Below, piece after piece: positions 13,092 through 33,692 of a stretch of 33,692 nucleotides of DNA; the stretch's first letter is position 1; each line of letters opens with the position of its first letter. The position numbers and the translations under genes were made by a program. Under the pieces are notes generated by a model. The model was given only the letters and a program-made list of their open reading frames with translations. It was not told the origin of the DNA and did no database searches. This stretch comes from Planctomycetota bacterium (GTDB lineage: Bacteria; Planctomycetota; Planctomycetia; Gemmatales; Gemmataceae): positions 1-33,692 of the forward strand of contig VGYC01000068.1 of the NCBI GenBank assembly GCA_016873095.1, read 5' to 3'.

Positions 13092-16000
13092 ATGGCTACC
13101 GAGACGCATCTCAAAGAGTTGCTCATTCGCTGGGAGGAGCTGCGCGATCAGGGCAAGGACGTCACTCCCGAGGAGCTGTGCCGGGACCAGCCGGAGCTGG
13201 TCGAGCCGCTGCGGAAGCGAATTGCGGCCCTCCGGTCGATGGACTCGATGCTGGAGACGGCGCAACAGCAGGTCGGACCGGGCACTGCGGAGCATCAATC
13301 CCCTGCTGAGTCTGACGGTGACGAGCTATCGTCGGCGGGCCAGCGCGCGCCGGCGCCAGCCGCGACCGTGCCCGGCTATGAGATTCTGAACGAGCTGGGC
13401 CGCGGCGGCATGGGCGTTGTCTACAAGGCCCGGCAGATCAGTCTCAATCGATTGGTCGCGCTCAAGATGATCCGCGGCGAGCGCGACACCGACCCGATCC
13501 ACCTGGACCGTTTCCGCGCCGAGGCCGAGGCGATCGCCCGCCTGCAGCATCCGAACATCGTGACCATCCACGAGATCGACACGCACGAAGGCCGTCCGTA
13601 CATCGCCTTCGAACTGGTGGAGGGTGGCAGCCTGGACGACAAGCTAGGCGGCCGCCCGCAGCCGCCCCGGCAGGCAGCCGAGCTGATTGAGGCCCTTGCC
13701 GGCGCGATCCACTATGCGCACGAGCGCGGCATCATTCATCGCGACCTGAAACCGGGCAATGTGCTGTTTCAGGTGGCCCACGCCAGCGTTGCCGCGCATG
13801 CCGATGATATTGGCGGCATCCCGCGTGGCGCCATGCCAAAGATCACCGACTTCGGCCTGGCGCGGCGGATGGACAGCGGCCCTTCCCGTACGCGCACCGG
13901 CACGATTCTGGGAACTCCCTGCTACATGGCGCCCGAACAGGCGGCCGGCAAGACAGGCCAGCGGGGCCGGGGTGTCGATATCTACGCACTGGGAGCGATC
14001 CTTTACGAGCTGCTCACCGGCCGGCCGCCCCTGCAGGGGCTTACCAGCATCGAGACAATTCACCTGGTGCGCTACACGGAGCCGATGTGGCCGCGACGCC
14101 TGCAACCGTCCGTGCCCCGCGACCTGGAAACCATCTGCATGAAGTGCTTGCTCAAGGACCCGGCCAAGCGCTATGCAACGGCAAAGGAACTGGCCGTCGA
14201 TCTGCGCCGCTTCCTGATGGGCGAGCCGATCGCGGCCCGCTCCACGCCATTATGGGAGCGTGGCGTCAAGTGGGTGCGGCGCAAGCCGGCACTGGCGACG
14301 TTGCTGATTGGCGGCGTGCTGGCCGCCGCTTTCCTGGTGGCCACCGAAATCTGGTTTCGCGCACAGTTGCAGTCCGCCTTGCAAGAGGCACGCGACGAGC
14401 ATGCCGAGGCCAAGAATCGTCTGCTGCGCTTGCATGTGGCCAGTGCCGCCAATCTGCAGGACGCCGGCAACTTCTTCACATCCATGATCTGGCTGGTCGA
14501 GGCCCTCAAGATGGAGCCGCGCGAGCACGATCGTGAAGCCCATCGCATACGCATCGCTGCAACGCTGCGCTCGTGCCCAACGCTGGCGCAGCTCTGGTAT
14601 CACAAGCAGCAGGTCAACTATGCGGATTTCAGTCCGGACGGCAAGCGTGTGGTGACGGCCGGGGCCGACGCCATGGCGCGGCTCTGGGACCCGGTGTCGG
14701 GATTGCCGCTTGAACCGGCCCTATCACATCGCGGTGCTGTGCTGTTTGCGCGTTTCAGCCCCGACGGCCAATGGGTGGTGACGACCAGCACCGACAAGAC
14801 CGCTCGACTCTGGGTGGCACGCACGCGCAAGCAACACGGCGCCACGCTGGAGCACGAGGGCGCCGTCGCGTGCGCCGCCTTCAGTCCGGACAGCCGCTGG
14901 CTGGCAACCGCTGGCGCCGGCGGCATGGCGATCGTCTGGGATGTCGAGACGACCAGGGCGCGTTTCGCGCCACTCAAGCATGGCGACGCGGTCCGCGACG
15001 TGGACTTCAGCGACGATGGCCGCTGGCTGCTCACGGCGAGCGCCGGCACGGTGCACATCTGGGATGCCGCAACAGGCAAACCGCGGCTTGCCGACCCACT
15101 CCGCCATCCGCGCAGCGTTTGCTGCGCTCGTTTTCAGCCGAGCCCGGACAAGGATTCAACTGCCGAGCCAGCGATTGCCACCGGCTGTGAGGACGGCGGC
15201 GTTCGGCTCTGGGACGCGGCCAGCGGCAAGCCGATCTGGACCACGCACCACTTTGGGACCGTCAATGCCGTGGTTTTCAGTCCGAACGGCCAGCGCCTGG
15301 CCACCGGCAGCGCCGATCTGACCGCGCGTGTCTGGGACGTGAAGACCGGCAGCCAGGTGACTCCGACACTGAACCATGCCAGCAGTGTCCTGGGCGTCGC
15401 CTTCAGCAAGGATGGCGCCCGCCTGGCCACTTGCGGGGACGACAACACGGCGCAGGTCTGGAACTCCACGAGCGGTTGGCCGCTGGCGCCGCTGCTGTCT
15501 CATAACTCATCGGTGAGGCGCGTGGCCTTCGGGCCGGAGCCATCGGGACGCTGGCTGTTGACTGCATCCGAGGATCACAGCGCGCGGCTCTATGAATTGC
15601 CGGCGGCTGACGAGATGGTGCCGACCATCCGGCACGAAGCCGCCGTGCTTTTTGTCGGCTACGGGCCAGGTCCAGGAGCGGCCCTGGTGACGGCAAGCGC
15701 CGATCGCACGGCGCGGGTCTGGGACAACCAGGGCCAGCCAGTCACGCCGCCGCTGGTGCACGAGAAAGCCGTGCGCGATGCCGGCTTCAGCCCCGACGGC
15801 CAGTGGACCGTCACCGCCAGCGACGACAGCACCGCGCGCGTCTGGGATGCGCGGACAGGGAAAGCGAAGTTCGTGCTGAAGCATGGCGGGCCGGTGCGCC
15901 GCGCGGAATTTGCAGCAACCGGCCGCCGCATCGTCACCGCCAGCGCCGACAGCACCGCGGGCGTCTGGGACGCCGAGCGCGGCAGCGTTGTTGCTTCGCT

Positions 16001-16763
16001 GCGGCACGATGCCGCGGTTCGCGACGCACGCTTCAGCCCCGATGGCCTGTGCGTCGTCACTGCCAGCGCCGACGGCACGGCACGCATCTGGGAAGCGGAC
16101 TCCGGCAAGCGTCTGGGCAGGCCGCTCCGCCACGATCTCGGCGTGACCCGGGCACTGTTCGCGCCGGACGGCAAACGCATCGTCACGACGAGCGAAGACC
16201 AGACCGCGCGTATATGGGACGCGGAGTCCGGCAAGCATCTGTTGAGTTTCGATCATGCCGGGATCATCCTGGATGCCGCCTTCGACGCCGAAGGCAAGCA
16301 ACTCATCACGTCGAGCGACGACAACACCGCGCGGGTTTGGGACGCGCACACCGGCGAACTCCTGGTCCCGCCGCTGAAGCACAAGGGAGCGGTACTGGGC
16401 ATTGCCTTCAGCCCGCACAAGGGCGTGGGCCGCTGGATCGTGACTGCCAGCAACGACAATACGGGGCGTGTGTGGGACGCCAGGACCGGCGAACCCCTGA
16501 CGCCGCCTCTCATCCATTCCGGCTTCGGCCGCATCACCGATTCGGCATTCCACCCCTCGGGCCAGTTCGTGGCCACCGCCAGCGCCGACGCAACCGTCCG
16601 CATCTGGGATCTGCGGCCGACGGAGCTATCCCTCGCCGACCTGGAACTGCGCGCCGCCATCTATTCCGGCAGCCGTATTGATGAGAAGACGCTCGGTCTG
16701 GTGCCGCTCGGCCCCGTTGCCCTCGAAGAGAAATGGCGCTCGCTGCGCGTCAAGTCGAAATGA
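13092..16763 (+). CDS. Transmembrane Ser/Thr protein kinase with C-terminal WD40 repeats
   Basis: 1223 residues. Residues 1-90 are a planctomycete-type leader (ELCRDQPELVEPLRKRI). The kinase domain spans about 95-375 with GRGGMGVVY (103-111), Lys125, HRDLKPGN (216-223), DFGLA (253-257) and APE (280-282), so it should be active. A short insertion lies between HRDLKPGN and DFG (about 228-247). One membrane helix (about 399-420) follows. After a helical stretch, about 16 WD40-type repeats run from near 505 to 1190, most ending in A-R-V/I/L-W-D, probably forming two beta-propellers on the far side of the membrane as a sensor or binding platform. It stands alone, convergent with the PKS-NRPS gene. 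The target is unknown. Confidence 0.95.
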   Translation: MATETHLKELLIRWEELRDQGKDVTPEELCRDQPELVEPLRKRIAALRSMDSMLETAQQQVGPGTAEHQSPAESDGDELSSAGQRAPAPAATVPGYEILNELGRGGMGVVYKARQISLNRLVALKMIRGERDTDPIHLDRFRAEAEAIARLQHPNIVTIHEIDTHEGRPYIAFELVEGGSLDDKLGGRPQPPRQAAELIEALAGAIHYAHERGIIHRDLKPGNVLFQVAHASVAAHADDIGGIPRGAMPKITDFGLARRMDSGPSRTRTGTILGTPCYMAPEQAAGKTGQRGRGVDIYALGAILYELLTGRPPLQGLTSIETIHLVRYTEPMWPRRLQPSVPRDLETICMKCLLKDPAKRYATAKELAVDLRRFLMGEPIAARSTPLWERGVKWVRRKPALATLLIGGVLAAAFLVATEIWFRAQLQSALQEARDEHAEAKNRLLRLHVASAANLQDAGNFFTSMIWLVEALKMEPREHDREAHRIRIAATLRSCPTLAQLWYHKQQVNYADFSPDGKRVVTAGADAMARLWDPVSGLPLEPALSHRGAVLFARFSPDGQWVVTTSTDKTARLWVARTRKQHGATLEHEGAVACAAFSPDSRWLATAGAGGMAIVWDVETTRARFAPLKHGDAVRDVDFSDDGRWLLTASAGTVHIWDAATGKPRLADPLRHPRSVCCARFQPSPDKDSTAEPAIATGCEDGGVRLWDAASGKPIWTTHHFGTVNAVVFSPNGQRLATGSADLTARVWDVKTGSQVTPTLNHASSVLGVAFSKDGARLATCGDDNTAQVWNSTSGWPLAPLLSHNSSVRRVAFGPEPSGRWLLTASEDHSARLYELPAADEMVPTIRHEAAVLFVGYGPGPGAALVTASADRTARVWDNQGQPVTPPLVHEKAVRDAGFSPDGQWTVTASDDSTARVWDARTGKAKFVLKHGGPVRRAEFAATGRRIVTASADSTAGVWDAERGSVVASLRHDAAVRDARFSPDGLCVVTASADGTARIWEADSGKRLGRPLRHDLGVTRALFAPDGKRIVTTSEDQTARIWDAESGKHLLSFDHAGIILDAAFDAEGKQLITSSDDNTARVWDAHTGELLVPPLKHKGAVLGIAFSPHKGVGRWIVTASNDNTGRVWDARTGEPLTPPLIHSGFGRITDSAFHPSGQFVATASADATVRIWDLRPTELSLADLELRAAIYSGSRIDEKTLGLVPLGPVALEEKWRSLRVKSK

Positions 16764-16901: not shown

Positions 16902-19900
16902 CTACAGGGGCACGCTCCGCGCCTCGGCTGCGGCGTTGGCTGCGGCGTTGGCCAGGCATTCGCGCAGGCGTTCGGCCAAGACGTGGACGTGCGGCTCCTG
17001 CACCATCGAGTGGTGCTGGCCGGGGACGAAGTAAACATCAACAGCGTCGGCAAGCTGGCCCCAGCCGCGGTCGTCCGGCATGGGGACGTGCACCGGCGCC
17101 TCCAGCGGACGGAACAGGGTGATCTTGCCCGGATAGTGGCGCACCGCGTAGGCGTTGCCCAGCTCGATGTGCGCGTGGAACAGCCGTTTCAGGTCGTCGA
17201 GCATGCGTTGCACCAGAGGCAGCGGCGTGCTGTCATCAACAACGCCAAGCTTCCTGGCGTGCTCCCAGAGATAGGGAAGCTGCTCGTCGGGACCGAGCTG
17301 AGCGAGTTCCTCCAGGGTGAAGTCCAGACCGTATTCCTGCCAGGTGAGATCGTCCTCGCCGACATAGGGCCGGTTGGCGTCGTTGTGAGGGATGGTCGTG
17401 TCGAAGAGGGTCAGCAGGCCGACTTCCTCGCCACGGGCCCTGAGTTGCTGGGCCATCTCCAGGGCGATGATGCCGCCCATGGACCAGCCGCCGATGTGAT
17501 ACGGTCCCTGCGGCTGCACGTCGCGCATGGCGGCGAGGTAGTCGGCGGCCATCTCCTCGACCGTCGCCGGCACCGGCTCGCCATGGAACCCGGCCGCGCG
17601 GATGCCATAGAGCGGGTGTCCGCCGCCCAGATGGCGCGACAGCGGCTGGTAGCAGGCGACGATGCCTCCCGGCGGATGCACGACGAACAGGGGCGGCTTC
17701 GTGCCGCGCGGCTGCAATGGCACGAGCAACTCCGGCGACGGTGACGCCGACGTGCCATTGACATGCTGGCCATTGCTCTGCTGGCCATTGCTCTCGTAGC
17801 CGCGCGACGCGGCTGGCAGTGCGTCCGCGCCAAAGACCTCGCTGATCCGGTCCGGACAGGTATCCGCGAGGTGCCGCATCAGCCCGGAGATGGTCGGCGC
17901 CTCGAACAGGGCAATCACGTAGATGTGTTCGCCCAGCTTCTCCTGCAGATGATTGATCATGTGCACGCCGAGGATGGAACTGCCGCCCAGCTCGAAGAAG
18001 TTGTCCTCGATGCCGACCTGCTCGACATGCAGCAACTCCGCCCAGAGTTCCGCAAGAAACTCTTCCACGGCGGTCCGCGGCGCGACATAAGCCTGTTCCA
18101 TGTTGGGCCGTTCCAGCACGGGCAGGGGGAGCGCCTTGCGGTCGATCTTTCCGGTCGGCGTGATCGGCAGTTCCTCCAGCGTGACATATGCCGAGGGCAA
18201 GGCGTAGGCCGGGAGCTTTTCCTTGAGATGCTTGCGGAGGACCTCGATGGTGGGTAGCTCGGCGCCGTCGCGCGGTACGAGATAGGCCACCAGCCGTTGC
18301 GAGCCGACGCCGTCGCCGTGCACCGCGACGGCCGCTTCGCGCACCTCGGGGATCGATACCAGCAGCGTCTCGATTTCTTCCACCTCGATGCGATAGCCGC
18401 TGACCTTCACCTGCTGATCGATGCGTCCGTAGTATTCGATGCTGCCGTCGGCCCGCCAGCGACAGCGATCGCCCGTGCGGTACATGCGGCCCTGGCCCGT
18501 GAAGTGATTGGGCACGAAGCGCTCCGCAGTCTTGTCTGGATCGTTGAGATAGCCCCGTGCCACGCCCACGCCGCCCATCCACAACTCGCCTGGGACGCCC
18601 AGGGGTGCTGGGTTGCGAAACTCGTCCAGAATGTAGGCCTGCATGTTGGCGATGGGCCAGCCGATGGGCACGCTGGAGCGCGTGTCGCCGAGCAAGCACT
18701 TCCACCAGGTGGCCTCGACGGTGGTCTCCGTCGGACCGTAGAGGTTGTACAGGTCCACCGGCAGGATCGCGAATAGCCTGTCGGGTAGATCGACCGGCAG
18801 TGCCTCGCCGCCGGAGCTGAGCCAGCGTAGCCAGCGGCATTCCGGAAAGCGTGGGTGGTCGATGAACAGCCGCAACATGCTTGGCACGCTCTCCACCACG
18901 GTGGCGCGTTCCTCGATCATGCATTCCAGCAAGCGCGACGGGTCGCGTTCCGTCCCGGGCTCGGGCAACACCAGCAGCGCCCCGGTCGCCAGCGGGATGA
19001 AGATCGAGCAGATACTGGCGTCAAAAAAGTAGGCGAGACTCAAGAGATAGCGATCTTCCGGGACAACGGGCAACTTCTCCTGCTGCCAGAGGATGGTGTT
19101 GCAGATGGAGCGGTGATCGACCATCACTCCCTTCGGCCGACCCGTGGTGCCGGATGTGAAGATGACGTAGGCAAGGTTATCGGGCCCCACCTCGGCAGCC
19201 AGTTCCGGCCCGAAGCTGTAGCGGCCGTCCGCAGCATGAGGTTGATGCTCCACGCCGATGACGTCGCTGCCCGTTTCCGGCAATCGATTCTCCAGGTGCC
19301 TCTGCGTGAGGACGACCGGCGACAGGACCTCGTCCAGGATTGCTTTGAGCTTGTCGCGCGGGCTGGCCGGATCCAGAGGCACGTAGGCACCGCCGGCCTT
19401 CAACACGGCGAGGATGGCAACGATCATTTCCGGCGAGCGCTCGAAGAGCAGTGCCACGCACACTTCCGGCTTCACGCCCAGGGCGACAAGGCGATGAGCC
19501 AGATTGTTGGCCCAGCCGTCCAGGTCGGCGTAGGTCATGGTCCGGCCGCGAAAAGTCAATGCCACCGCATCCGGCGTCGCGCGAGCGCGTTGCTCGAACA
19601 GGTGATGCAGGCACAGGTCCTGCGGATAGTCGCGATAGGTCTGGTTCCAGTCGTAAACGACGAGTCGCCGTTCTGCTGGCGTGATCATCGGCAACTCGAG
19701 AACCGGCCGATCCGGATGTGCCAGCATCGCCTGGAGCAGGTTCAGGAAATGCTCGACCAGCCGAGAAACAGTCTCCTGGTCGAACAATTCCGCGTCGTAG
19801 CGGACGATGCCCTCGACGGTGTCCTCGCCCTCTTCCAGGACCATCTCCAGGTCGTACTGGACGGTATGCTGTTCGACGTTGCAAGTCTCCAGGCGCAGGC

Positions 19901-22900
19901 CATCGACAACGCGGCTGCCGTCCTGCTGGGAGAGCAGTTGCTGCCAGACGCCGCGCTGCATCGACAGGTGCGAGCGTTCGAGCGCGAACAGCACCTGGAC
20001 CAGCGGCGACTGCCCGGTTTGCCGCGGAACGGTCAGCTTCTCGATGAGCAGCGGGAATGGATAATCCTGATGCGACAGGGCATCGAGGATCGTCTGCCAC
20101 GATTGACGGATGAAGTCGCGCGTCGTCGGATTGCTCGCCAGCCTGGCGCGTAGCGGGATGAGATTCATGAAATAGCCGATGACGTTCGCGAACTCCGGCC
20201 GGCTGCGTCCGGTCACTGGTGACCCGACGAGGCAGTCTTTCTGCCCGCTGTAGCGACCGAGCAAGATCTGAAACGCTCCCAGCAGAACGGTGAACAGCGT
20301 TACTTCCTCGCGTGCAGCAAGCGCCTTCAAGCGTCGCGTCAAATCGGCGTCGAGGCGGCACAGCACCTGCTCGCCGCGATGGGCGCTGCGTGCCGGCCTC
20401 GAGCGATCGGTCGGCAATTCCAGAACGGTCGGCACGCCGGCAAGCTGTGCCTGCCAGTACGCGCGCAAGCGGTCCCCTTCCGGGCCCGCCAGCATGTTTG
20501 CCTGCCAGGCGACGAAGTCGCGGTACGAAGCCTTTGCCGGCAGCACCGCCTCTTTGCCCGCCAGCGCCGCGGCATACAGCAGCCGCATTTCTTCCAGTCC
20601 CACGACCAGCGACCAGAAATCGCCAACGATGTGATGCAACGTTCCCAGGAAGACGTGGTCCTCCGGGCCGCGCGTGAACAGGAACGCCCGGAACGGCGGG
20701 CCATGCTCGAGATCGAAGGGCCGATGCGCTTCCGCGCTGAGCCGTTCCTGCAATTGCTCCTCGCTCCACGCCGTGGCATCGACGACCTCGAAGTGCACCT
20801 TGGCGTCGTCGTGCACGCGCTGCACCAGTTCGCCGCGTTCCGCTGCGAAGGTGGATCGAAGCGCCGGATGCCGATCCAGCACTGTTTGAAGCACGCCGCG
20901 AAACACGTCGAGGTCGATGGTCGAGCGGAAGCGCAGCGGCAGGCTGATGTTCTGCACAGCGCTGTCGCGGTCCATCTGCTGCATGACCCACAAGCCGCGC
21001 TGCCCGTGGCTGAGCGGGAAAACGATGTCGGAACCCACGTCAGCCGCGATGTCCGCCGGCCCTTCGCCGGCCTCTGTCTTCGCCCACTGGCTCGCCACCA
21101 GCTCAGCCAGACGGTTCAAGGTCGGGCTGCGCATCAGCTCAACGATGGGCAGCGTGACGCGTAGCTCCTCCTCGATCCAGTTGCGTAGCTCGACGGCCAT
21201 GAGAGAATCGACGCCAAGTTGCACCAACGACTTCTCGGCATCGAGACGGGCACTCGAATCGCCGAGGATGCGTGCGACCTTGTCGCGCAGCAGCGTACCG
21301 ATGACGCCGTGGCGCTCCTCCGCTGCGGCGGCTTGCACGGCCTCGCGCGGCGCTAGCGGGCCGTCACTCCCGGTCGAACCTGCGCGATTCTTGAGCAGGT
21401 GCCCGAAGCGCGGCGACAGGCGGCCCGTCACGCCCAGACCCCGCCAGCGCGACCAGTCGACGCGCATGACGCTGACTTGAGTGAGTTGCCTGTGTAGCGC
21501 CCGCTCCAGGAGCGACAACGCCTGGCCGACCGAAAAGCTGAGCACGCCCTGGCGCTCCAGCCGTTCGCCCAGTTGCGGCCGCTGTGCCAGGTAGCCGACC
21601 TCGCCGAGGTAACCCCAGTTCACGGACAAGGCCGGCAGGCCAAGGGCGCGACGATGATGCGCCAGCGCATCGAGGAACAGATTGGCCGCAGCGTAGTTGC
21701 CCTGCCCGGCGTGCCCGAAGACACTCGACAGCGATGAAAACAGCACGAAGAAATCGAGTGGTCGATTCTGCGTCTGCCGGTGCAGGTTCCACGATCCTTG
21801 CATCTTCGGCGCCAGCACGCGCTTCATCAGGTCGTCGTCCAGCTTGAGCAGCAGCGAATCTTCCAGCACCATCGCCGAATGGAAGATGCCGCGCAGCGGC
21901 GGCAGCTCACGATCGATCTCGGCGAGCAAGGTCGCGACATCCGTCTCCCTGCTGATGTCGGTTCTCTTGACGACGATGTGTGCGCCTTTCGCGGCCAGGT
22001 CATCGAGGACCTTCTGCGTGGCCTCATCAGCGACACCGCGCCGGCCGACAAGAACCAGATGACGGGCGCCACGCTCGACAAGCCACTGAGCAACCGCCAG
22101 ACCGAAGCCGCCCAGACCGCCGGTGACCAGATAACTGGCATCGTCGCGCAGCGTCAGTGGTTCATCCTCAGCGGGCACAACCGCAGCCGGCATCTCGCGC
22201 ATCGACACGACGATCTTGCCCACGTGCCTGGCATGCTGCATGCACCGGAAGGCGTTGACCGCGTCGCCGACGGGGAACACTTGCTGCGGCAACGGCGACA
22301 GCGTGCCGTCGTCGAACTGTCTCGCCAGGTCGCGAAGCATCTTGCCCAGGAACGCTGGACGGTCGCGCATGACACGGTCGAGATCGATGGCGAAGAAGGA
22401 GAGGTTATTGCGAAACGGCTTCAAGCCGAGGCGGGCATTCTGATAAATGTCGCGCTTGCCGACTTCAAGGAAACGGCCATAGTCGTCCAGGACCTCGACG
22501 CTGCGCACCAGCGCTTCACCGGCCAGTGAGTTGAGGACGATATTCACGCCGCGCCCGCCAGTGACCGCCAGAACTTCGTCAGCGAAGGCCAGCGACCGCG
22601 AATCGAACGCATGGACGATGCCCATATCGTTCAGGAAAGCACGCTTCTCCTGGGTGCCCGCCGTGGCGAGAATCTCCGCTCCCGCCTTGCGGGCAAGCTG
22701 GACGGCTGCGAGCCCGAGGCCGCCGCTGGCAGAGTGAATCAGCACGCGCTCGCCGGCTTCGATGCGGGCCAGATGCTCCAGCGCATAGGCCGCCGTCAGG
22801 AAGACGATTGGAACGGCGGCGGCTTCCTCGAATGTCAACCGAGCCGGCTTGCGGGCCACCAGGTCGGCTCGCGTCGTCACGTGGCTTGCAAAGGCGAACG

Positions 22901-25900
22901 GCGCAACGGCCATTACCTCGTCGCCCAGTTGAAAGTCCTGTACCCCGGCGCCGACTGCCGTCACACGGCCGCTGCACTCCGCGCCCAGGGGAACCGGTCC
23001 CGGCTGCATGCCCGGGTAGAGACCCAACGCCTTCATCACATCGCTGAAGTTCAAGCCGGCGGCCACCACCTCGATCTGAACTTCGCCCTCGGCCGGCGGC
23101 AGACACCGGATGGCTTGAAGCCGCATGCTGTCGAGCGTCCCGGGACGCGGCGTGGTCAGGCGATACGCCGCCGCGGTCGTGTCGACCTTGCCTGGTTCAC
23201 GCGCAGCGACAAAGCGATGGACATAACGATCTCCGCCACGCCAGGCCACTTCATCCTCATTGTCGTTTAGCGCAATCTCGTCGAGCAGCTCAAGGTCATC
23301 CGTCTCGGGATCCAGGTCGATAAGCTTGCAGCGCAGTCGCGGATACTCGTTCGTGATGACGCGGCCGAGGCCGACGACGGGGCTTTGTGCGACGGCAACG
23401 GCGTCCTGGGCGGCGACCGCCTGAACTCCGCGCGTCACCAGAAACAGCGGAGCAGAAAGTCCCTCGCTTGCCCGGTCCCAAGAATGGACGAGATGGAGAA
23501 CGCTGAGCAATCCAGGCACCTGGGCGTCTTCCAGATCGTCAACCGACAAGTCCTTGGCCGCAGGGGCGTCGAGATTCCAGAGATGCACGATGCCGCCGGA
23601 CACCGGCTCCGGCAACTCGCGAAGCAAGCGGTCCATGTCGTTCGCGCTGCCGGGATCGACATGGAAGCAGTTTTCACCTTCACGAAAGAACCGAGTGCCG
23701 GCCATGACGGTTGTACAGCGCTGTCCCTGGCGGCGAAACCGGGTGGCCAGTTCGTCTCCCTTGCCGGTTCGATCGGCAAAGATCAACCAGTGAGCGGGCT
23801 CGTGAGCCAGATCTCCGTTAGTTGAGCCGTTAGTTGTGCCGTTGGTTGCGGGCGGCTCGCGGCGCGGCGACAACTCCCACTGGTAGGCATGGAGTAGATC
23901 ATTCAGCGCCTCCTCCGCGCTGTGGCCGGCGACGCAGTGGCTACGCAGACCGCGAACCTCGATGATCCGGTGGCCGGTCTCGTCGTAGACGTCGATCTCG
24001 ACCGTGGTCCAGCGCGGCGTCTTCTCGATCTGCCGGGCATGACACCAGAGCTTGCCACCTGGCCGACGGTGAAAGCGAATCCGCTCGATTTCAGTCGGCA
24101 GGTAGAGTGCGGTCCCCAGTTCGCCGGACGATGGATCGGCACAGATAGCAACCTGGAAACAGGAGTCCAGCAAGGCCGGATGGAACAGGTAATCGCCGAC
24201 GTCGCCGGCCACAGGTTCCGGCAGGCGAACGTCGCCGATGGCCTCGCAATTGCCGCGATAGACGTGTTCGATTCCCTGGAACGCTGGGCCGTAGTCCAGG
24301 CCAATTCTGTGCGAGTAAGCAAAGCAATCGGCCCCGCTGACCCGTTTCGGGCAGCGTGCGATAATCGCCTGGGCGTCGAAGTGAGTCGGCGACTCGACGG
24401 CCGTTCCAGCGCGAAGGTGCGCCCGGCAGTGCAGGGTCCAATCCGTGTCATCCTCGGCGCCGCGACCGTGGGTCTGCACGAAGCCACTCTCAGGTTGATA
24501 GGTCGTCTGAATGCGCACGGGCTTGTCGGCCGCGATGAAGCACGGATTGGTCAGCTTCACGTCCTCTAGCTGAATGCCGGCTTCCGGCAACGATTCGCGG
24601 GCCACGGCGAACGCCATTTCCAGAAACGCCGTCGCCGGAACGATGATGGATCGCTGCACACGGTGATCGGCCAGGTAGGGCAAGAGGCGGATGTCGAGGC
24701 GAGCCTCCCAGGTCGGGCGCGGCTCGGGCAACAGCATTCCGAGCAGCGGATGAACCGGCGCAGTTAGCCGCGACCACCGCGATTCCGAAGATTCGTGCCA
24801 GCAGCGTTCGCGCTGCCAAGGGTACGTGGGCAGACTGACAAACTGGCCGCGCTCGGAAAACACTCCCGACCAGTTGATCGAATAGCCGATGCCATGGAGT
24901 AGCCCCAGGGCACGCAGCATCGTGTCGCGTTCGTCCTCCTTGCGGCGAAGCGAGGCAACGACCTTGACCTTGCGACCGCGCTGCTGGTAGCACTCGGCAA
25001 TTGCTGCAGCCAGCACCGGATGTGGACCGAGTTCCAGTGCGGTATCGCAACCGAGTTCGACCAGACGATCGACGCCATCGGCAAAGCGCACGCCCTGGCG
25101 CACATTGTGCCACCAGTATTCCGGGCTCAGTTCCGGGCCGGCAAGTTGCTTGCCTTGCACCGTGGAGACAAAAGGCAGCGTGGCCGGTTGCGGTCGAATT
25201 CCCGCCAGCGCCGCCAGCAGATCCGCCTGTACCGGGTCCATGTGCGCGCTGTGAAATGCGTACTGCACCTGAAGCTGGCGATGGAAAATGCCTCGCTCTT
25301 GCAACTGTCGTGCGATCTCGGCAAGCGGCGCCGGGTCACCGGATATGGTGACGGAACTCGGCGAGTTGACGGCGGCCAGGGCGGCCGCGTCGCCGTGGGG
25401 TGCGAGCAATCGTTCCGCCTCTTCGCGCGTCAGCGCGGCAGCGAGCATGTGTCCGTGAGCGCTCGCCCGATCCATGCAGCGGCCGCGATGAAAGATGATG
25501 CGCGTTGCATCCTCCAGCGTAAAAATACCGGCCAGATGAGCCGCGGCAATCTCACCCACGCTATGACCGATCACCGCGTCCGGTGTCACTCCCCAGCTGC
25601 GCCACAATTCGGCGAGGGCCACTTGCAGCGCAAAAATCGCCGGTTGCGAGATGGCGGTCTGGTTCAGCCGCGATTCGCCCTCGGCACGCGTCAGTTCCTC
25701 GAGCAGGGACCAGTCGCCAAGGCCGCGAACGATGCAGTCGCACCGCTCAATCACAGCACGAAAGACCGCTTCCTGATCGAGCAGTTGCCGGCCCATCGCC
25801 CACCATTGCGGTCCCTGGCCGCAACAGATGAACGCCAACTTCGGCTTCTTTGCGACCGTGAGCCGATCGCTCACAAGGTTGGGGGAGGCGCTGCCGGCCA

Positions 25901-27482
25901 AGAACTCGTCCAGCCGCTGGCTCAGGTCGTCCTTGGAACCAGCGATGACCGTGAGCCGATGGTCTTGATGCGTTCGCCGCAAGGCAGCATGGGAGGCGAT
26001 ATCGTAAAGTGAGATTTCCTGCGGGCTGCCGGCAACGAAGTCGCGCAACTCGCTGGCGGCGGCCCTGAGCGCATCGGCATTGCGAGCGGAAAGCACGACC
26101 GGTTGGCTCAGCGAAGGCGTGACCGCGGATTTCACGACCGCCGGGGCGGGGGGCGATTGCAGGATCGTGTGCGCATTGGTCCCGCCGAAGCCAAACGAGT
26201 TGACGCCGGCAAGGAGATCGCCAGTCGCGCTGAGCGACTGGTTGGTTGTAGGAACCCGCAGCTTCAAGCCGGCAAAATCGATGTCCGGATTGGGCCGCTC
26301 AAAGTGCAAGTTGCCAGGCAGGACGCGATGATGCAGAGCCAGTGCCGTCTTGATGAGGCCGGCAATGCCGGCGCCCGCTTCGAGATGGCCGATGTTTGTC
26401 TTGACGGAACCCAGCAGGCACGGACGATCTGCCGGTCGGCCGGGGGCAATGACGTTGCCGAGCGCCCGCGCCTCGATGGGGTCGCCGACCGGCGTGCCGG
26501 TGCCGTGCGCTTCGACAAAGTCCAAGCCCGCGGGCTGAATGCCAGCGCTGTCACACGCCTGGCGGACCAGCGCCTCCTGAGCTTCCTGGCTGGGGACAGT
26601 CATGCCATTTGTCCGGCCGTCCTGATTGACAGCCGTGCCGCGGATCACGGCATAGACGCGATCGCCATCGGCCAGGGCCCTGGAAAGCGGCTTGAGGACG
26701 ACCATGCCCGCGCCCTCGCTGCGGACGAAGCCGGCACCGGCTGCGTCGAATGCCTTGCACCGTCCGTGTGGCGACAGCATGCCCAGGCGGCTGAAGCCGA
26801 CGTACCAATCCGGCATGAGCAGAAGATTGACGCCGCCAGCAAGGGCCAGCGGGCACTTTTCCACCCAGATACTCTGGCAGGCGAGATGGACCGCGACCAG
26901 CGCGGAGGAACAGGCGGTGTCAACGGATGCGCTCGGGCCCCGGAAATCAAGGCAGTAAGCAATGCGATTGGCGGCGATACTCAGCGAACTACCCGTATTG
27001 GTGTGCACATCGATGACACCGCGATCGCGAAACGATGTCTGGGCCACCGAGTAGTCCCAGCTCGATATGCCAACGTAAACCGCGGTGCGGCTACGAGCCA
27101 GCTTGTCCTGTACCTGGCCCGCGTCTTCGAGCGCCTCCCAGGCCGTTTCAAGCAGCAACCGCTGTTGCGGATCCATCCAGGCAGCTTCGCGCGGCGAGAT
27201 GCCAAAGAAATGTGGATCGAACTGATCAATGCTGGCGAGAAAGCCCCCCCAGCGCGTGGAACTCTTGCCGGGTTTGCCGCTTTCATCGTCAAAGAAAGTG
27301 CGCGCATTCCAGCGTTCCGCCGGGACCTCGGTGATGGCGTCCACGCCGGAATTGAGGAGTCTCCAGAACTTGTCAGGGCTATCAGCGCCGCCAGGAAAAC
27401 GGCAGCCGATGCCAATGATGGCGATGGGCTCGCGTGAGCCGGCGAGGGGCGCTCCCTCCGGCCAATGGGGAATGGAGTTCAC
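16902..27482 (-). CDS. Hybrid PKS-NRPS megasynthase (KS-AT-DH-ER-KR-ACP-C-A-PCP-TE)
   Basis: About 3526 residues from GTG 27482, which has AAGGAG 8 bases upstream; TTG 27515 would add 11 residues. Domains in order: KS 18-444 (Cys191 in DTACSSA, His326, His366); AT 549-850 (Ser641 in GHSVGE; YAFH at 741-744, suggesting malonyl-CoA); DH 911-1190 (His940, Asp1106; the motif Gly is Arg944); ER 1444-1760 (SASGGLGL); KR 1780-2035 (TGGLGGFG; Tyr1930, Asn1934); ACP (Ser2093 in [10 protein letters not shown]); C 2155-2600 (HHIVGDF); A 2620-3117 ([32 protein letters not shown]); PCP (Ser3169); TE 3260-3515 (Ser3334 in GWSMGG, Asp3361, HH 3490-3491). One fully reducing PKS module extends a chain with a C2 unit, one NRPS module adds an amino acid, and the TE releases it. 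No loading module or methyltransferase is present. Confidence 0.95.
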
Positions 27483-27883
27483 GGTGTTGGCTCCTTCGCC
27501 GACCGGGCCGAGCAAGTCCTCCTTTACTAAATCTGGCCTTGGACTCCGTAATCAGGCAAAACCCTTGCCCAATGTCCTATTTTAAACGCAAATTTTACGG
27601 AAACCGACCCAGGGGACAACATTTTGCAAATTGTGGCCCTGTCCCAGTTATCCCAACCGGCAATCCTTGACATGTCATCATTTTGATAAATACTGTGTCT
27701 GACAGATTACGAACCGCGCTGCTTTCGTTGGCGTTCCCTACCGCCGCAATGATAGGCAGATAGACGTAAAGCATTCATTTGCAGGACATTGCACGATCGA
27801 TCCCTGGCATTTCCTGGGTCCGGCATCTGGATTGCAAATCACTTTCGATACAGAACCTGGACTTTAAACGACGGGAGAGTGCC
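27483..27883. promoter_or_regulatory. Divergent promoter region of the biosynthetic locus
   Basis: This gap of about 400 bases is visibly more AT-rich than its surroundings and separates the divergent PKS-NRPS and NRPS genes, so it must hold promoters for both. On the plus strand a perfect TTGACA (27667-27672) has only a weak -10 (TACTGT, 27691-27696). A sigma-54-like element, CGGCATC-N4-TTGCA (27821-27836), keeps the GG and GC pairs at correct spacing 48 bases before the NRPS start. On the minus strand a TAAAAT hexamer (near 27569-27574) could be a -10. No operator palindrome is obvious. No coding frame is supported here. Confidence 0.45.
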
Positions 27884-30800
27884 GTGACCAGTACAATTAG
27901 ACGCAACGCCGAGCGCAGTTTTGGGCAACGAATTGCACGGGCGAATGAGGGATCTGTACTTCGAGTCAGCCAGTCACGTCTCATGCAATGCTTGTCGCAC
28001 GGCCAGAGAGCGCTTTGGTTCATGCAGCAACTGAACCCAGGCAGCGCGGCTTACAACGAGTCCTTCGCGTGGCGAATTCACTCACCCTTGAATGTGGACG
28101 CTCTTCGACAGGCGTTTCAGTGGATCGTCGATCGGCATCCGGTCCTGAAAACAACTTTTCCCTCGCGCGGGGGACAACCGCTGCAGTGCATCCATGGTCG
28201 CGTCATCCTGCCGTTTGCCCATGTGGATGCTTCCGGCTGGGATGCCGCCAAGCTCGATTCTGTTATTACGACTGAGGCGCATCGCACGTTCGACCTGGAG
28301 CGCGATGCTCCCATCCGCCTCCTGATTGCCAGCATCTCCCCCAATGAGCATGTCATGTTGCTGGTGATGCACCACATCGCCATGGACCTGTGGTCGCTGG
28401 GTGTGATGCTGGAGGACCTGCGTGTGCTGTACGATGCGGCGCGCAAGGGCTTCTCTCCGCCGGCCCAACGCAAGCAAAGTGCCTATGCCGAATTCATCAG
28501 CAAGCAGGCAGACATGCTGGCCGGGCCGGAAGGCAAGAAGCTGGCCGACTACTGGGAACACCAGCTTGCCGGTGAACTGCCCGTGCTGAACCTGCCGACC
28601 GACAATCCTCGGCCGTCGGTGCAGTCACAGAGGGGGGCCAGCTTCAACTTCGACATCGACGACGACCTCGCCGAATCCGTCCGCGAGTTCGCCAAGGGCG
28701 AGGGCGTGACGCCATACATGGTCGTTCTGGCTGTTTACCAGGTCTTGCTGCATCGCTACACAGGGCAAGATGACATCCTGGTCGGTTCCCCGACGGCGGG
28801 CCGCGTCCGTCCGGAGTTCCGCCGCACGATCGGCTACTTCGTCAATCCGGTAGTGCTCCGCGGAGACGTGAGCGGCAACCCAACCTTCAAAGAATTCCTG
28901 TCGCGCATCCGCCGTACGGTACTCGGCGCGCTTGGGCATCAAGAGTATCCGTTCCCGTTGCTGGTGGAGAAGCTGCAGCCTGTTCGCGATCCCAGCCGAT
29001 CGCCGCTGTTCCAGGCTAATTTTGCCTGGGAGAGACCGATTGGCGGCATCGACGGCCGTCGGGATCGCAACGGCTCGCTCATCACCGGCTTCCGTCTCGG
29101 CGACCTGCAACTTGAGTCGTACCCGCTGAAACTGGAAGCGACGAAGTTTGACCTCACGCTGATGGTGATGGAGACGGGCCGGTCGTTGTCCGGCACGTTC
29201 CATTACAATCGCGACCTTTGGCATGCCGATTCCATCTCTCGCATGGCCGGCCACTTCCGCATGTTGCTCCGCGGCATCGTTGCCCATCCGGAGCGCCCCG
29301 TCGGCGAATGGGAGATGCTCACCGCTCCGGAAAAGCAGCAACTGATTGAATGGAACGACACTGCTCGCGAGTTTCGCGCAGGCGTGTGCATCCAGCGCCT
29401 CGTCGAGGAGCAGGTTGACAGGACCCCTGACGCGACTGCGGTTGCCTTCGACGGCGGCTTGCTTTCGTACCGGGCGCTCAACGAGCGGGCCAACCAGCTC
29501 GCCCGCCACTTGCAGACTCTCGGTGTCGGTCCGGAGACATGCGTCGGCGTTTTCATGGAGCGGTCGCCCGAGACGGTCGTGGCCATTCTCGGCATTCTGA
29601 AGGCCGGCGGCGCTTATGTCCCGCTCGACCCCGTCTATCCAAAGGACCGGCTGGCCTTCATGGTGGAAGATGCGGCCATGGCGGTGATCGTGACGCACAG
29701 CAAGCTTGAAACCGAGCTGCCGCCGAATCAGGCGCGCATCGTATCGCTGGACACGGATTGGCCGGCAATCGTCCATCACGACAGGGACAACCTCGGCACG
29801 CAAATGACAGCCGATAACCTCGCCTACGTCATCTTCACCTCCGGCTCAACCGGCAAGCCGAAGGGCGTGCTGGTGACGCACCGCGGCATCGGCAATCTTG
29901 CCCAGGCGCAGATCCGCGCCTTCGAGGTAACCGCCGAGAGCCGGGTGCTGCAATTCGCATCACTGAATTTCGACGCCTCGGTGTCGGAGATCGTGATGTC
30001 CTTGTGCGCCGGGGCGACTCTCGTCCTGGGCACTCCCGAGAGCCTGCTGCCTGGCCCCGGCCTGACGCGGCTCATTCAAGAGGAGTCCATCTCGATCGTG
30101 ACGCTGCCGCCATCGGTGCTGGCCAACATGCCGGCGGATGCGTTCCCGAACCTACGCACGGTGGTGGCGGCAGGCGAGGCTTGCCCGGCCGAGATCGTGG
30201 CCCGCTGGGCCCCCGGCCGCAAGTTCCTCAACGCCTATGGGCCGACCGAGAATACCGTGTGTGCCAGCATGGCCGTTTGCCAGCCCAACGGCCGGCGTCC
30301 GACCATCGGCAAGCCGATGGACAATGTCCAGATTTTCATTCTGGATTCACGCCGCCAGCCGGTGCCGGTCGGTGTGCCCGGGGAGTTGCACATCGGCGGC
30401 ATCGGCCTGGCGCGCGGCTATCTCAATCGACCCGAGTTGACGGCCGAGAAGTTCATCCCGCACCCGTTCAGCGCCGAGCCGGGCGCTCGCCTCTATCGCA
30501 CCGGCGACCTGGCCCGCTGGCAGGCTGACGGCTCGATCGACTTCCTCGGACGAATCGACCACCAGGTCAAGATTCGTGGCTTCCGCATCGAGCTCGAGGA
30601 GATCGAGGCCACGCTCTTGCAGCATCCGGAGATCAGCGAGGCCGTCGTCATGGCACGCGCCGAAGACGGCGTCGACAAGCGGCTGGTTGCCTACTATGTG
30701 GCCGGCGAGATGGCGGCTCCGTCCATCACCGAGCTGCGTCGCTTCCTGAAGGAGAGCTTGCCAGAGCACATGATTCCGGCTGTGTTCGTGCGCATGGACG

Positions 30801-31114
30801 CCTTGCCACTGTCGCCCAACGGCAAGGTGGATCGCAAGAAGCTGCCGGCGCCAAGCGCCGACCGCCCAGAGCTCGAGCAAAAGTTCATCGCGCCGGAAAC
30901 GGAGACGCAGCGTGCCCTGGCCGGCATCTGGGCCGGCATCCTGGGCATCGACAAGGTCGGCATCCACGACAATTTCTTCGAGCTGGGCGGCGCCTCGATC
31001 CAGGTGCTGCAGGTCGCCGAGCGTGCGCAGGAGGCCGGCCTTCCCCTGGCGCCCGAGCACATGTTCCAGTTCCAGACAATCGCCGAGCTCGAAGCCGTCC
31101 TTTTTCAGGGGTAG
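27884..31114 (+). CDS. Stand-alone NRPS module (C-A-PCP, no thioesterase)
   Basis: 1076 residues from GTG 27884, which follows GGGAGAG; a TTG at 27779 in frame has weaker support. The condensation domain (about 35-480) starts with CLSHGQRALWFMQQ and has HHIAMDL at 163-169 in place of HHxxxDG. The adenylation domain (about 505-987) has IFTSGSTGKPKG, NFDASVSEI, NAYGPTENTVCAS, YRTGDLARW and NGKVDRKKLP. By eye the binding-pocket residues read D-A-S-T-V-A-A-V-C-K, which from memory matches a published Tyr signature. The carrier domain has Ser1038 in FELGGASIQ. There is no TE or docking domain I can recognise. Its C and A domains are close relatives of those in the divergent hybrid synthase, so the two presumably act in one pathway, this one loading an amino acid. 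Confidence 0.93.
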   Translation: MTSTIRRNAERSFGQRIARANEGSVLRVSQSRLMQCLSHGQRALWFMQQLNPGSAAYNESFAWRIHSPLNVDALRQAFQWIVDRHPVLKTTFPSRGGQPLQCIHGRVILPFAHVDASGWDAAKLDSVITTEAHRTFDLERDAPIRLLIASISPNEHVMLLVMHHIAMDLWSLGVMLEDLRVLYDAARKGFSPPAQRKQSAYAEFISKQADMLAGPEGKKLADYWEHQLAGELPVLNLPTDNPRPSVQSQRGASFNFDIDDDLAESVREFAKGEGVTPYMVVLAVYQVLLHRYTGQDDILVGSPTAGRVRPEFRRTIGYFVNPVVLRGDVSGNPTFKEFLSRIRRTVLGALGHQEYPFPLLVEKLQPVRDPSRSPLFQANFAWERPIGGIDGRRDRNGSLITGFRLGDLQLESYPLKLEATKFDLTLMVMETGRSLSGTFHYNRDLWHADSISRMAGHFRMLLRGIVAHPERPVGEWEMLTAPEKQQLIEWNDTAREFRAGVCIQRLVEEQVDRTPDATAVAFDGGLLSYRALNERANQLARHLQTLGVGPETCVGVFMERSPETVVAILGILKAGGAYVPLDPVYPKDRLAFMVEDAAMAVIVTHSKLETELPPNQARIVSLDTDWPAIVHHDRDNLGTQMTADNLAYVIFTSGSTGKPKGVLVTHRGIGNLAQAQIRAFEVTAESRVLQFASLNFDASVSEIVMSLCAGATLVLGTPESLLPGPGLTRLIQEESISIVTLPPSVLANMPADAFPNLRTVVAAGEACPAEIVARWAPGRKFLNAYGPTENTVCASMAVCQPNGRRPTIGKPMDNVQIFILDSRRQPVPVGVPGELHIGGIGLARGYLNRPELTAEKFIPHPFSAEPGARLYRTGDLARWQADGSIDFLGRIDHQVKIRGFRIELEEIEATLLQHPEISEAVVMARAEDGVDKRLVAYYVAGEMAAPSITELRRFLKESLPEHMIPAVFVRMDALPLSPNGKVDRKKLPAPSADRPELEQKFIAPETETQRALAGIWAGILGIDKVGIHDNFFELGGASIQVLQVAERAQEAGLPLAPEHMFQFQTIAELEAVLFQG

Positions 31115-31281: not shown

Positions 31282-31330
31282 CGTAGCCACAGATGCCAGC
31301 TTGTGAGCTTGCAAGGGCGGACAAGATGGC
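31282..31330. repeat. Dispersed repeat unit, second copy
   Basis: 31282-31311 resembles 5922-5952, sharing CGTAGCC and GCCAGCTTG-GAGCTTG with one indel and a few changes. Inside, GCCAGCTTGT pairs with a downstream ACAAGATGGC with one mismatch. The two copies lie 25 kb apart beside unrelated genes, which points to a dispersed intergenic family. Confidence 0.5.
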
Positions 31331-31386
31331 AGCTTGTCACCAAGCCCTGGCCTACAATAATCACCACCCGTAACAGGAGACCGGAC

Positions 31387-33369
31387 ATGATAGTCGAAAG
31401 CATGGGAGTTTATCTGCCGCCACGCTCGGTCACCACCGAAGAGATCACACGCGGCTGCAAGAAACCGCTCAGCTTCCCGCTGGAAAAGATGACCGGCATC
31501 CACACGCGGCGCATGGCCGGCGACACCGAGTTCTCTATCGATCTCGCCCGCAGAGCAATCGACGAGTGCCTGGCGCTGTCGCGGCACACGGCGGACGACA
31601 TCGATCTGTTGATTTGCTGCAACATCTCGCGCGTCGATGGCCCGGATCACAAGACCACGTTCGAGCCGAGCACAGCCATCCGGCTGCGCGATCACTTCAA
31701 GCTGAAGAACGCCATCGTCTTCGACGTGTCCAACGCCTGTGCCGGCGTGTTCACGGGCATGGTGATGGCCGAGGGCTATCTCCGCACCGGGGCGGCACGC
31801 CGGGCCCTGGTCGTCAGCGGCGAGTATATCACTCATCTCACGAAAACCGCTCAGCAAGAAATCGACAACTTCATGGACCCACGCATTGCCTGCCTGACCG
31901 TCGGCGATTCCGGCGTGGCTCTCCTATTGGAACCGACAACGGACCCGAAGGTCGGTTTCCAGGCGCTGAGCCTGTACACACTCGGCAAGTATCACACTTA
32001 CTGCGTCGCCAAGCCGACCGACCAGGAGCATGGCGGCGCCATCATGGTCACGGATCCGATCAAAAGCTCGGCGATCGCCATCAACCAGGCCGTCGAGCAT
32101 TCCACCGAAGTGCTTCGGAAAGCAAACTGGCCCATCGAGACGGCCAGTCATCTGATCATGCATCAGACTTCGTCCACGGCGCTCAACGGTGCGGCCCGTG
32201 AGATCAACCAGCGCTTTGGCAAGAACGCCCTCGCCCCCGAAAAGGTCGTCAACAACATTGCCGAGCGCGCCAACACCGCGACCACGACCCACTGGGTCGC
32301 CGTCATGGACCAGATTCTCACCAACAAGATCAACCAGGGCGACCGCGTCATCTTCGGCGTGAGCGGCTCCGGACAGATCACCGGGACCGCGCTCTATGTC
32401 TTCGACGATCTGCCGGACCGTATCCGCGCGAAGACAAAGAGCCGGACAGGATCGGAAGTCCGCGTCACGGAGCAAGCAACCGCAGTGCGGGTGCGCATCG
32501 AGAGCGTGGGCACGGCCGGCGACGATGTGCCGCGCACCAGCATCCCGCTGGCGAAGTCGGCCGCCGAGGATTGCCTGTCGCGCTCCGGCCATGAGCGTGG
32601 CGATATCGACTTGCTACTCTTTGCCGGCGTGTATCGCGACGATTTCATCTGCGAGCCGGCCATCGCCGCCATGCTGGCCGGCGAACTGAAGATCAACGAC
32701 GACGTCGAGGCCGTCAAGAAGCGCAAGACGTTCGCACTCGACGTCTTCAACGGCGGCATCGGCTTCCTGAACGCGTGCCACGCGGCTACCAAGCGTATCC
32801 AGGCGGGGTTGACGGGACGCGCCATGGTCGTCGCCAGCGAGATCGAGAACAACGCGCCGCGCGGCGCCCCGGTGCGGCGCGGAGTCCGCGAGACTGGCAG
32901 CGCCATGATCCTCGATGCCGAAGGGGACGGGAAGACCGGCTTCGGCAGGTTTCATTTCCACTACGACACGCAACACCTGGCCGACGTGCAAGCCCACACC
33001 ATCTTTGCCGACGGCAAGACCACCCTTGGCGTGGAGTTGAAGCCGGACCGCGACCGCCATCTCATCGCGACCATCGTCCAGGGCGTGCACGCCCTCTTGA
33101 AGCAAGAGGGCATCGGCCTGGACCGCATCAAGGCGATCTTCCCGCCGCAGGTGTCGCCGGACTTCGTCGGCGACCTGGCGAAGGCGCTCGATGTACCGTG
33201 CGAGCGCATGATCGATGTCTCGCTCGCGGGCGAGGACCTGTTCACGTCAGCGTTGCCGTTCGCGCTGCGCAAGGCTCAGGAAGAGAAGAGGGTGCAGCCG
33301 GGTGATATTGGCTTGCTCATCGCGGCGGGCGCGGGCAACCAGGTGGGCTGCGCGATTTATTACTTCTAG
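31387..33369 (+). CDS. Fused tandem KAS III-like protein (active half + degenerate half)
   Basis: 660 residues from ATG 31387, preceded by AGGAGA. Residues 1-342 are a full KAS III/thiolase-fold ketosynthase with Cys118 in SNACAG, His259 in IMHQTSS and Asn296 in ERANTATTTH, plus the family's GDSGVALLL and GSGQITG. Residues 365-660 repeat the fold, but the Cys position is Gly457 (FNGGIG), the His position is Pro587 (FPPQVS) and the Asn is lost, so this half cannot catalyse condensation. Free-standing KAS III enzymes are homodimers of about 330 residues; a fused active-inactive pair mimics a heterodimer, as in PqsC/PqsB. It lies 272 bases after the NRPS module on the same strand, so acyl priming, acyl transfer or chain joining for that pathway is likely but inferred. 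Confidence 0.88.
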   Translation: MIVESMGVYLPPRSVTTEEITRGCKKPLSFPLEKMTGIHTRRMAGDTEFSIDLARRAIDECLALSRHTADDIDLLICCNISRVDGPDHKTTFEPSTAIRLRDHFKLKNAIVFDVSNACAGVFTGMVMAEGYLRTGAARRALVVSGEYITHLTKTAQQEIDNFMDPRIACLTVGDSGVALLLEPTTDPKVGFQALSLYTLGKYHTYCVAKPTDQEHGGAIMVTDPIKSSAIAINQAVEHSTEVLRKANWPIETASHLIMHQTSSTALNGAAREINQRFGKNALAPEKVVNNIAERANTATTTHWVAVMDQILTNKINQGDRVIFGVSGSGQITGTALYVFDDLPDRIRAKTKSRTGSEVRVTEQATAVRVRIESVGTAGDDVPRTSIPLAKSAAEDCLSRSGHERGDIDLLLFAGVYRDDFICEPAIAAMLAGELKINDDVEAVKKRKTFALDVFNGGIGFLNACHAATKRIQAGLTGRAMVVASEIENNAPRGAPVRRGVRETGSAMILDAEGDGKTGFGRFHFHYDTQHLADVQAHTIFADGKTTLGVELKPDRDRHLIATIVQGVHALLKQEGIGLDRIKAIFPPQVSPDFVGDLAKALDVPCERMIDVSLAGEDLFTSALPFALRKAQEEKRVQPGDIGLLIAAGAGNQVGCAIYYF

Positions 33370-33397: not shown

Positions 33398-33457
33398 GGG
33401 TGCCATGGCCACGGCCTTGCGTGGCCATGCTCACCCAAAGCGGTGAGCATGGCACCC
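33398..33457. repeat. Nested palindromic element with alternative stems
   Basis: Three perfect stems overlap: 33404-33413 with 33420-33429 (10 bp), 33424-33435 with 33442-33453 (12 bp), and 33398-33407 with 33448-33457 (10 bp). The first two share bases 33424-33429, so they exclude each other. It lies between the KAS III fusion stop and the IS66 transposase end. It may be a terminator for both convergent genes or a dispersed palindromic repeat. Confidence 0.65.
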
Positions 33458-33474
33458 CAAAAAGACGTATTGGT

Positions 33475-33692
33475 TCACGGCGCGGGCAATAGAGATATTG
33501 CCCTTTGTTGATTGTGGTGGGCTTGGACTGCCTCGACAAGCCAGTCGAAGACGTTGCAGGATTGGCGGCGGCAGGTTTCGATGACAGTCAGCAGTCGCTC
33601 GACGAACTGACTGCCGGACGCTGATTGCGTGCCGAACGAGAGCTTCCGCCAGATGACCGCGTGCCGCAGCGCTTGCTCGGCGGCATTGTTGG
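33475..33692 (-). CDS. IS66-family transposase, C-terminal end (runs off window)
   Basis: Reading the minus strand from the window edge gives 71 residues ending at TGA (33475-33477). The peptide begins NNAAEQALRHAVIWRKLSFG and continues through TQSASGSQFVERLLTVIETCRRQ, the conserved C-terminal block of IS66-type DDE transposases; the Glu in NNAAE is the third catalytic acid. The rest of the gene lies beyond the window, so integrity cannot be judged. It ends about 105 bases after the KAS III fusion gene, convergent with it, and may mark the right edge of the biosynthetic locus. No terminal inverted repeat of the insertion sequence was identified on this side. Confidence 0.88.
   Translation of the reverse strand, partial: NNAAEQALRHAVIWRKLSFGTQSASGSQFVERLLTVIETCRRQSCNVFDWLVEAVQAHHNQQRAISLLPAP

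Follow-up and report, generated by a model that had tools for sequence, protein, structure and literature searches.

The question raised by this locus is what a protein made of two KAS III halves in one chain does beside genes for nonribosomal peptide and polyketide assembly lines (NRPS and PKS-NRPS). We analyzed a stretch of 33,692 nucleotides (contig VGYC01000068.1 of assembly GCA_016873095.1, a Planctomycetota bacterium of the Gemmataceae), called the window below. Positions 31387 to 33369 of the window form a single open reading frame of 660 amino acids that contains both halves, D1 and D2. It starts with the ATG at 31387, and its stop codon ends at 33369; the features of the locus are listed in Table 1. 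The ORF finder also listed a longer version that starts with a GTG at 31303; since homology to KAS III sets in at the ATG, the shorter frame is the more likely one.

Table 1. Features of the tandem KAS III locus in the window.
Feature	Coordinates	Strand	Basis
Divergent PKS-NRPS, KS-AT-DH-ER-KR-ACP-C-A-PCP-TE	16902..27515	-	Pfam
NRPS module C-A-PCP, directly upstream of the D1-D2 gene; fused to D1-D2 in relatives	27779..31114	+	Pfam; PCP motif LGGAS
Shine-Dalgarno-like AGGAG, 7 nt ahead of the ATG	31375..31379	+	Sequence
D1, LstA/OleA-like catalytic KAS III half, residues 1-346	31387..32424	+	Pfam; PDB sequence matches; AlphaFold model; tree
Glu93 of D1, in FEPSTA; D1 counterpart of OleA Glu117	31663..31665	+	Invariant in nine tandems; absent in FabH-type KAS III
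Cys118, predicted nucleophile	31738..31740	+	Alignment
His259	32161..32163	+	Alignment
Asn296	32272..32274	+	Alignment
D2, LstB-like half without Cys/His/Asn, residues 347-660	32425..33366	+	Sequence comparison; tree
Glu423 of D2, predicted to act in trans as base for D1; aligns with LstB E60 and OleA Glu117	32653..32655	+	Alignment

Pfam assigned residues 112-198 to PF08545 (ACP_syn_III) and two stretches to PF08541 (ACP_syn_III_C), the better of which (residues 571-658) lies in the second half (E = 1.2e-19 for the whole protein). The top sequence matches of D1 in the PDB were FabH chains, and D2 alone matched solved KAS III chains with E = 2.8e-6. The original prediction, made from the letters of the window, had held that the second half keeps the KAS III fold, and this is supported by the PF08541 stretch and by the match to solved chains. 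It had also placed a Cys118-His259-Asn296 triad in the first half, with Gly, Pro and no Asn at these positions of the second. Both assignments were confirmed: the motif NACAG, starting at residue 116, gives Cys118 as the nucleophile, and D2 has Gly457, Pro587 and an acidic stretch that replaces the Asn.

Structure prediction of the monomer, a check proposed with the original prediction, was run. From an alignment of 16 rows, AlphaFold2 gave a model of the whole chain with a pLDDT of 89 (only 67 when five sequences were used) and a pTM of 0.92, and the high pTM suggests that the relative placement of D1 and D2 is confident. Comparison of the D1 side of the model (about residues 1-352) to the PDB gave Z scores of about 40 to KAS III chains, with FabH, PqsD and OleA tied within about 1; the modeled fold alone would not choose among these three.

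The residues at the predicted active site were more informative. Cys118, His259 and Asn296 are invariant in all nine homologous tandems that we aligned, and a Cys-His-Asn triad was found in the second half of none of them. This invariance indicates that the triad pattern is not peculiar to one sequence. Glu423-Pro424-Ala425 of D2 is also invariant (9 of 9). There is a Glu-Pro at the position of OleA Glu117 in both D1 and D2, invariant in each half, and five FabH-type sequences have L, L, F, C and C, that is, no Glu, at the equivalent of Glu93 of D1. The Glu423 motif aligned with Glu57-60 of LstB-like proteins, and Glu59 of one LstB-like protein aligned with residue 117 of an OleA chain (4kti).

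This glutamate has a defined role in related enzymes. In OleA, each active site takes its general base, a Glu, from the partner subunit, and nearly all of the OleAs tested have Glu-Pro at 117 (PMC7064751). The E105A mutant of PpyS is dead, and CorB and MxnB, which are without that Glu, use a substrate with a more acidic position (PMC4578411). For LstAB, the C128A and H271A changes in LstA and the E60A change in LstB each abolish activity, according to a review (PMC12141560). Because the invariant Glu423-Pro aligns with the essential E60 of LstB and with Glu117 of OleA, D2 probably makes up one half of the active site. Its sequences indicate that D2 is under constraint, not idle. We considered that D2 might be a decaying half, and this was ruled out by the invariant motifs and by a dN/dS of 0.12 for D2 between two of the genomes (G314 and G254), though that value comes from few changes (12 synonymous and 5 non-synonymous). 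The tandem had been described originally as an active/inactive pair. The description stands insofar as the triad is intact in D1 only and absent from the second half throughout, yet D2 is not simply inactive, as it keeps the invariant, LstB-type Glu423.

To place the two halves among other KAS III proteins, we used a tree of 36 rows. A protein search of plasmid records had turned up pairs of neighboring genes, in Streptomyces and Rhodococcus, with matches to both D1 and D2, and these pairs stood in for LstA and LstB of S. toxytricini. All D2 halves grouped with the LstB-like proteins (support 100/100), and all D1 halves grouped with the LstA-like proteins with moderate support (92/93). The D1 copies were monophyletic (100/100), as were the D2 copies (100/98). 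On this tree the halves are fused homologues of LstA and LstB, an ancestry that is well supported, and the groupings argue for descent from an LstA-LstB pair that was joined once. A recent internal duplication was ruled out, since D1 and D2 fall in different deep clades.

The plasmid-borne pairs have neighbors of their own. In Streptomyces sp. NBC_01006, an LstA/LstB-like pair leads an operon, and the proteins encoded next match models for OleC, an olefin beta-lactone synthetase, for OleD, a 2-alkyl-3-oxoalkanoate reductase, and for NRPS and formyltransferase. Neither the OleC nor the OleD match reaches its NCBI equivalog cut-off, so both hold at the level of the family. A Rhodococcus plasmid and a second Streptomyces plasmid have annotations that match this operon. 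We take its layout to be that of the lipstatin operon lstA-lstF. Another LstA/LstB-like pair, on a plasmid of Rhodococcus sp. BH4 (L025:9935-11906), has no NRPS, OleC or OleD annotated within 21 kb and is perhaps a different use of such a pair.

All nine tandem copies come after a C-A-PCP module, five in the same polypeptide and four as the next gene. The original prediction had named NRPS and PKS-NRPS genes as neighbors, which Pfam confirmed, and had proposed to look for the same fusion beside such genes elsewhere; this search brought the copies, with that of the window, to nine. In the window, the D1-D2 gene is the next gene, 272 nt beyond the C-A-PCP gene. A second copy in the genome of the window shares 49% identity with the first and lies on contig C66, where an open frame of 1814 amino acids encodes C-A-PCP-D1-D2 with the tandem as the C-terminus of the NRPS. 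The same fusion was found in G027, G010 (on a contig of only 5.5 kb), L005 (where the PCP was recognized by its LGGCS motif only) and G128. In G314, G254 and G111, D1-D2 has a gene of its own immediately after a C-A module with a PCP motif, and in the first two of these it slightly overlaps the module gene. The earlier description of a covalently linked pair was thus correct as to the single chain and incomplete, as in five of the nine loci the NRPS is part of that chain too. In the tree, D1 of the window nests with the NRPS-fused copies of C66, G027 and G010 (96/92), and the larger group around these (100/97) otherwise consists of NRPS-fused copies alone. Because of this nesting, the free-standing gene of the window looks most simply like a secondary split from an NRPS-fused form.

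PKS genes adjoin the tandem in the window and are directly upstream of it in G027, L005, G128, G314 and G111; there was no PKS among the genes scanned around the C66 copy. No thioesterase domain was matched in the fused proteins scanned. We also looked for the remaining genes of a lipstatin-like route. There were no OleD- or formyltransferase-like neighbors, and nothing similar to LstC, LstD or LstF, among the genes scanned at the tandem loci. Likewise, no OleC/OleD-type or formyltransferase gene was present among the window genes scanned, which end where the contig stops, 323 nt after the tandem gene. Because the genome of the window (assembly 95.5% complete) has no OleC homologue at E ≤ 1e-30, the rest of the lipstatin route appears to be missing there. 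Adjacent OleC-like and OleD-like genes do occur in four genomes (G027:C2, G010:C955, G128:C166 and G111:C1), on other contigs or far from the tandem.

The tandem is a rare protein. A profile of five tandems found the fusion in 7 of 397 genomes of the class, including that of the window, and in 3 of 95 genomes of the family. A 392-genome sample of the phylum added one genome, G578, in which the halves are on separate genes with no NRPS alongside in the stretch scanned. Tandem-bearing genomes also carry other, FabH-type KAS IIIs. The tandem is not a housekeeping protein; the concern that the fusion might be a widespread one of that kind is answered by these counts and by its constant place behind an NRPS module. 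A scan of viral_contigs with the 660-amino-acid protein found no relative, and matches in the phages collection reached only about half of it. DUF1501 proteins and ADOP-like permeases are part of the gene content of the relatives. One copy, L005, is labeled as from a Mycobacterium metagenome-assembled genome, yet its tandem groups within the clade formed by the class of the window, and an 877-amino-acid FtsX-type permease beside it looks foreign to Mycobacterium; L005 is probably misbinned or transferred.

Among characterized systems, the closest likeness is to LstA-LstB, the KAS III heterodimer of lipstatin biosynthesis in Streptomyces toxytricini. In both, one half has the Cys-His-Asn triad and the other is triad-less with a conserved Glu, the halves fall in the same clades, and an NRPS is nearby. 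LstA and LstB are two polypeptides, whereas here there is one chain of 660 amino acids, which in relatives directly continues the C-terminus of C-A-PCP. The substrates described for LstAB are acyl-CoAs, and PCP-bound ones would be an extrapolation. OleA and PpyS, the head-to-head KAS IIIs, have in common with the tandem the thiolase fold, Cys-His-Asn and a Glu supplied by the partner (predicted here), but are stand-alone homodimers with two active sites, whereas the tandem has one complete active site left. FabH, the housekeeping KAS III, is single-domain and has no Glu before the conserved Pro.

The original prediction had compared the tandem to KS-CLF pairs and to PqsC/PqsB. KS-CLF of type II PKS shares the idea of a catalytic protein paired with a non-nucleophilic homologue, the CLF, which shapes the tunnel instead of supplying a base. 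It belongs to PF00109/PF02801, and neither of these matched the 660-amino-acid protein, for which Pfam gave PF08545 and PF08541 only. PqsBC, an alkylquinolone synthase, is also a KAS III heterodimer with one triad-less subunit, but it is unfused and joins octanoyl to 2-aminobenzoylacetate. PqsC is without the active-site Asn (PMC4807248), whereas Asn296 is invariant in the tandems. With Asn296 present, the KS-CLF families absent and D2 a homologue of LstB with its Glu, neither comparison held up.

We propose that the protein is a single-chain LstA-LstB, a di-domain for head-to-head Claisen condensation without decarboxylation, of the OleA/LstAB type, that serves the adjacent NRPS module; we put the probability of this reading at roughly 60%. 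In OleA and PpyS, the Cys-bound acyl group is deprotonated by the Glu of the partner and then attacks a second thioester (PMC4578411). We infer from these enzymes the reaction here, its two substrates, release in cis and the product. Cys118 of D1 would be loaded with a fatty acyl group, and Glu423 of D2 would cross the D1-D2 interface to take the alpha proton of that group. The resulting carbanion would attack the PCP-bound aminoacyl or peptidyl chain at its carbonyl, His259 and Asn296 would stabilize the intermediate, and the new carbon-carbon bond would release the chain from the NRPS. Hydrolysis and loss of CO2 would then give an N-acyl amino ketone, with a beta-keto acid or a pyrone as alternatives. 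This mechanism fits the position after the PCP and the thioesterase-free fused proteins, and it would not need OleC. Against a role in release, the pair is on a separate gene in the window, and the divergent PKS-NRPS there carries its own TE. The acyl-joining role suggested originally is supported as likely, now with a strict link to NRPS assembly lines.

The A-domain codes, read by eye, vary. That of the window, DASTVAAVCK, is a code associated with Tyr; DILQLGMIWK of G128 is Gly-like; and C66 has DAFVQALVWK. We take all three codes, with their positions, the final Lys and their meanings, as leads only. This variation suggests that the putative release unit serves modules with different amino acids.

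Chain release from NRPSs is known to occur by thioesterases, reductases, terminal C domains and Dieckmann-type cyclases. Somewhat short of an even chance, in our estimate, is the broader claim that fused LstA-LstB is an undescribed termination domain of NRPS and PKS-NRPS lines that, by non-decarboxylative Claisen release with a fatty acyl group, makes acylated amino ketones instead of acids, lactones or aldehydes. If so, intermolecular Claisen condensation of this type by a dedicated KAS III pair would add a new way of off-loading to those known for NRPSs. Amino ketone lipopeptides would be expected as a class of products, and the reaction could serve to join fatty acids to peptides. With an LstAB-like heterodimer in one chain, the division of labor between the halves should be testable by single mutations. 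The LstAB/OleA class of enzyme is known. The review hints at natural fusion chimeras of LstAB (PMC12141560), so the two-half fusion alone may be already known. We found no description of an NRPS-fused KAS III pair, or of one chain combined with an NRPS terminus, in the literature searched, which covered few subscription papers.

Other reactions would use the same residues differently. D1 could act like FabH, taking the PCP-bound chain onto Cys118 and extending it by decarboxylation of malonyl-CoA or malonyl-ACP, with D2 only a structural partner, like CLF for KS. The full triad of D1 is the one used for malonyl decarboxylation, and FabH chains lead its sequence matches; LstA, however, carries the same triad and condenses without decarboxylation, according to the review (PMC12141560). 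The Glu-Pro that is invariant in both halves and missing from FabH-type enzymes, together with the membership of D2 in the LstB clade, makes FabH-like extension seem unlikely. It is similarly improbable that the pair makes an acyl donor, by condensing two acyl-CoAs (or acyl-ACPs) into an alpha-branched beta-keto acid for use by the NRPS or PKS as in lipstatin, with proximity to the PCP only aiding channeling. That is the known activity of LstAB (PMC12141560), and lipstatin-like operons likewise contain an NRPS. The C-terminal fusions after the PCP point instead to the end of the line, and the genes that would accompany acyl-donor synthesis, OleC in the genome of the window and OleD or formyltransferase beside the tandems, were the ones missing from our scans.

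PKS-NRPS lines can also finish by Dieckmann cyclization, so D1 might release the chain intramolecularly, with the Glu of D2 as base, and close it into a tetramic acid or a related ring. In G027 no KR was found in the PKS, so a beta-keto amide could be formed there. However, the PKS modules of the window, L005 and G314 carry KR, DH and ER, and their acyl amides should therefore be without an acidic position. We regard Dieckmann release as very improbable overall; it is plausible only for a PKS whose product retains a beta-keto group, as may be the case in G027.

Several minor observations concern the surroundings of the tandems. A chain in which MbtH is joined to a MupA/Atu3671-type luciferase-like monooxygenase (TIGR04020) directly follows the NRPS-tandem fusion at two loci (L017:5454-6737, minus strand, and L019:16306-17565, plus strand) and is conserved between the two genomes. 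The NRPS ahead of separate-gene tandems begins with a TubC N-terminal docking domain at L038:8848-12264 and L041:9422-13480. In the window, a tyrosine recombinase/phage integrase lies near the left end of the contig (224-1366, minus strand), and a Ser/Thr protein kinase is fused to a long array of WD40 repeats (13092-16760, plus strand). At the other end, where the contig stops, positions 33431-33691 (minus strand) encode what by eye is the C-terminal part of an IS66-type transposase (NNAAEQALRHAVIWRK...).
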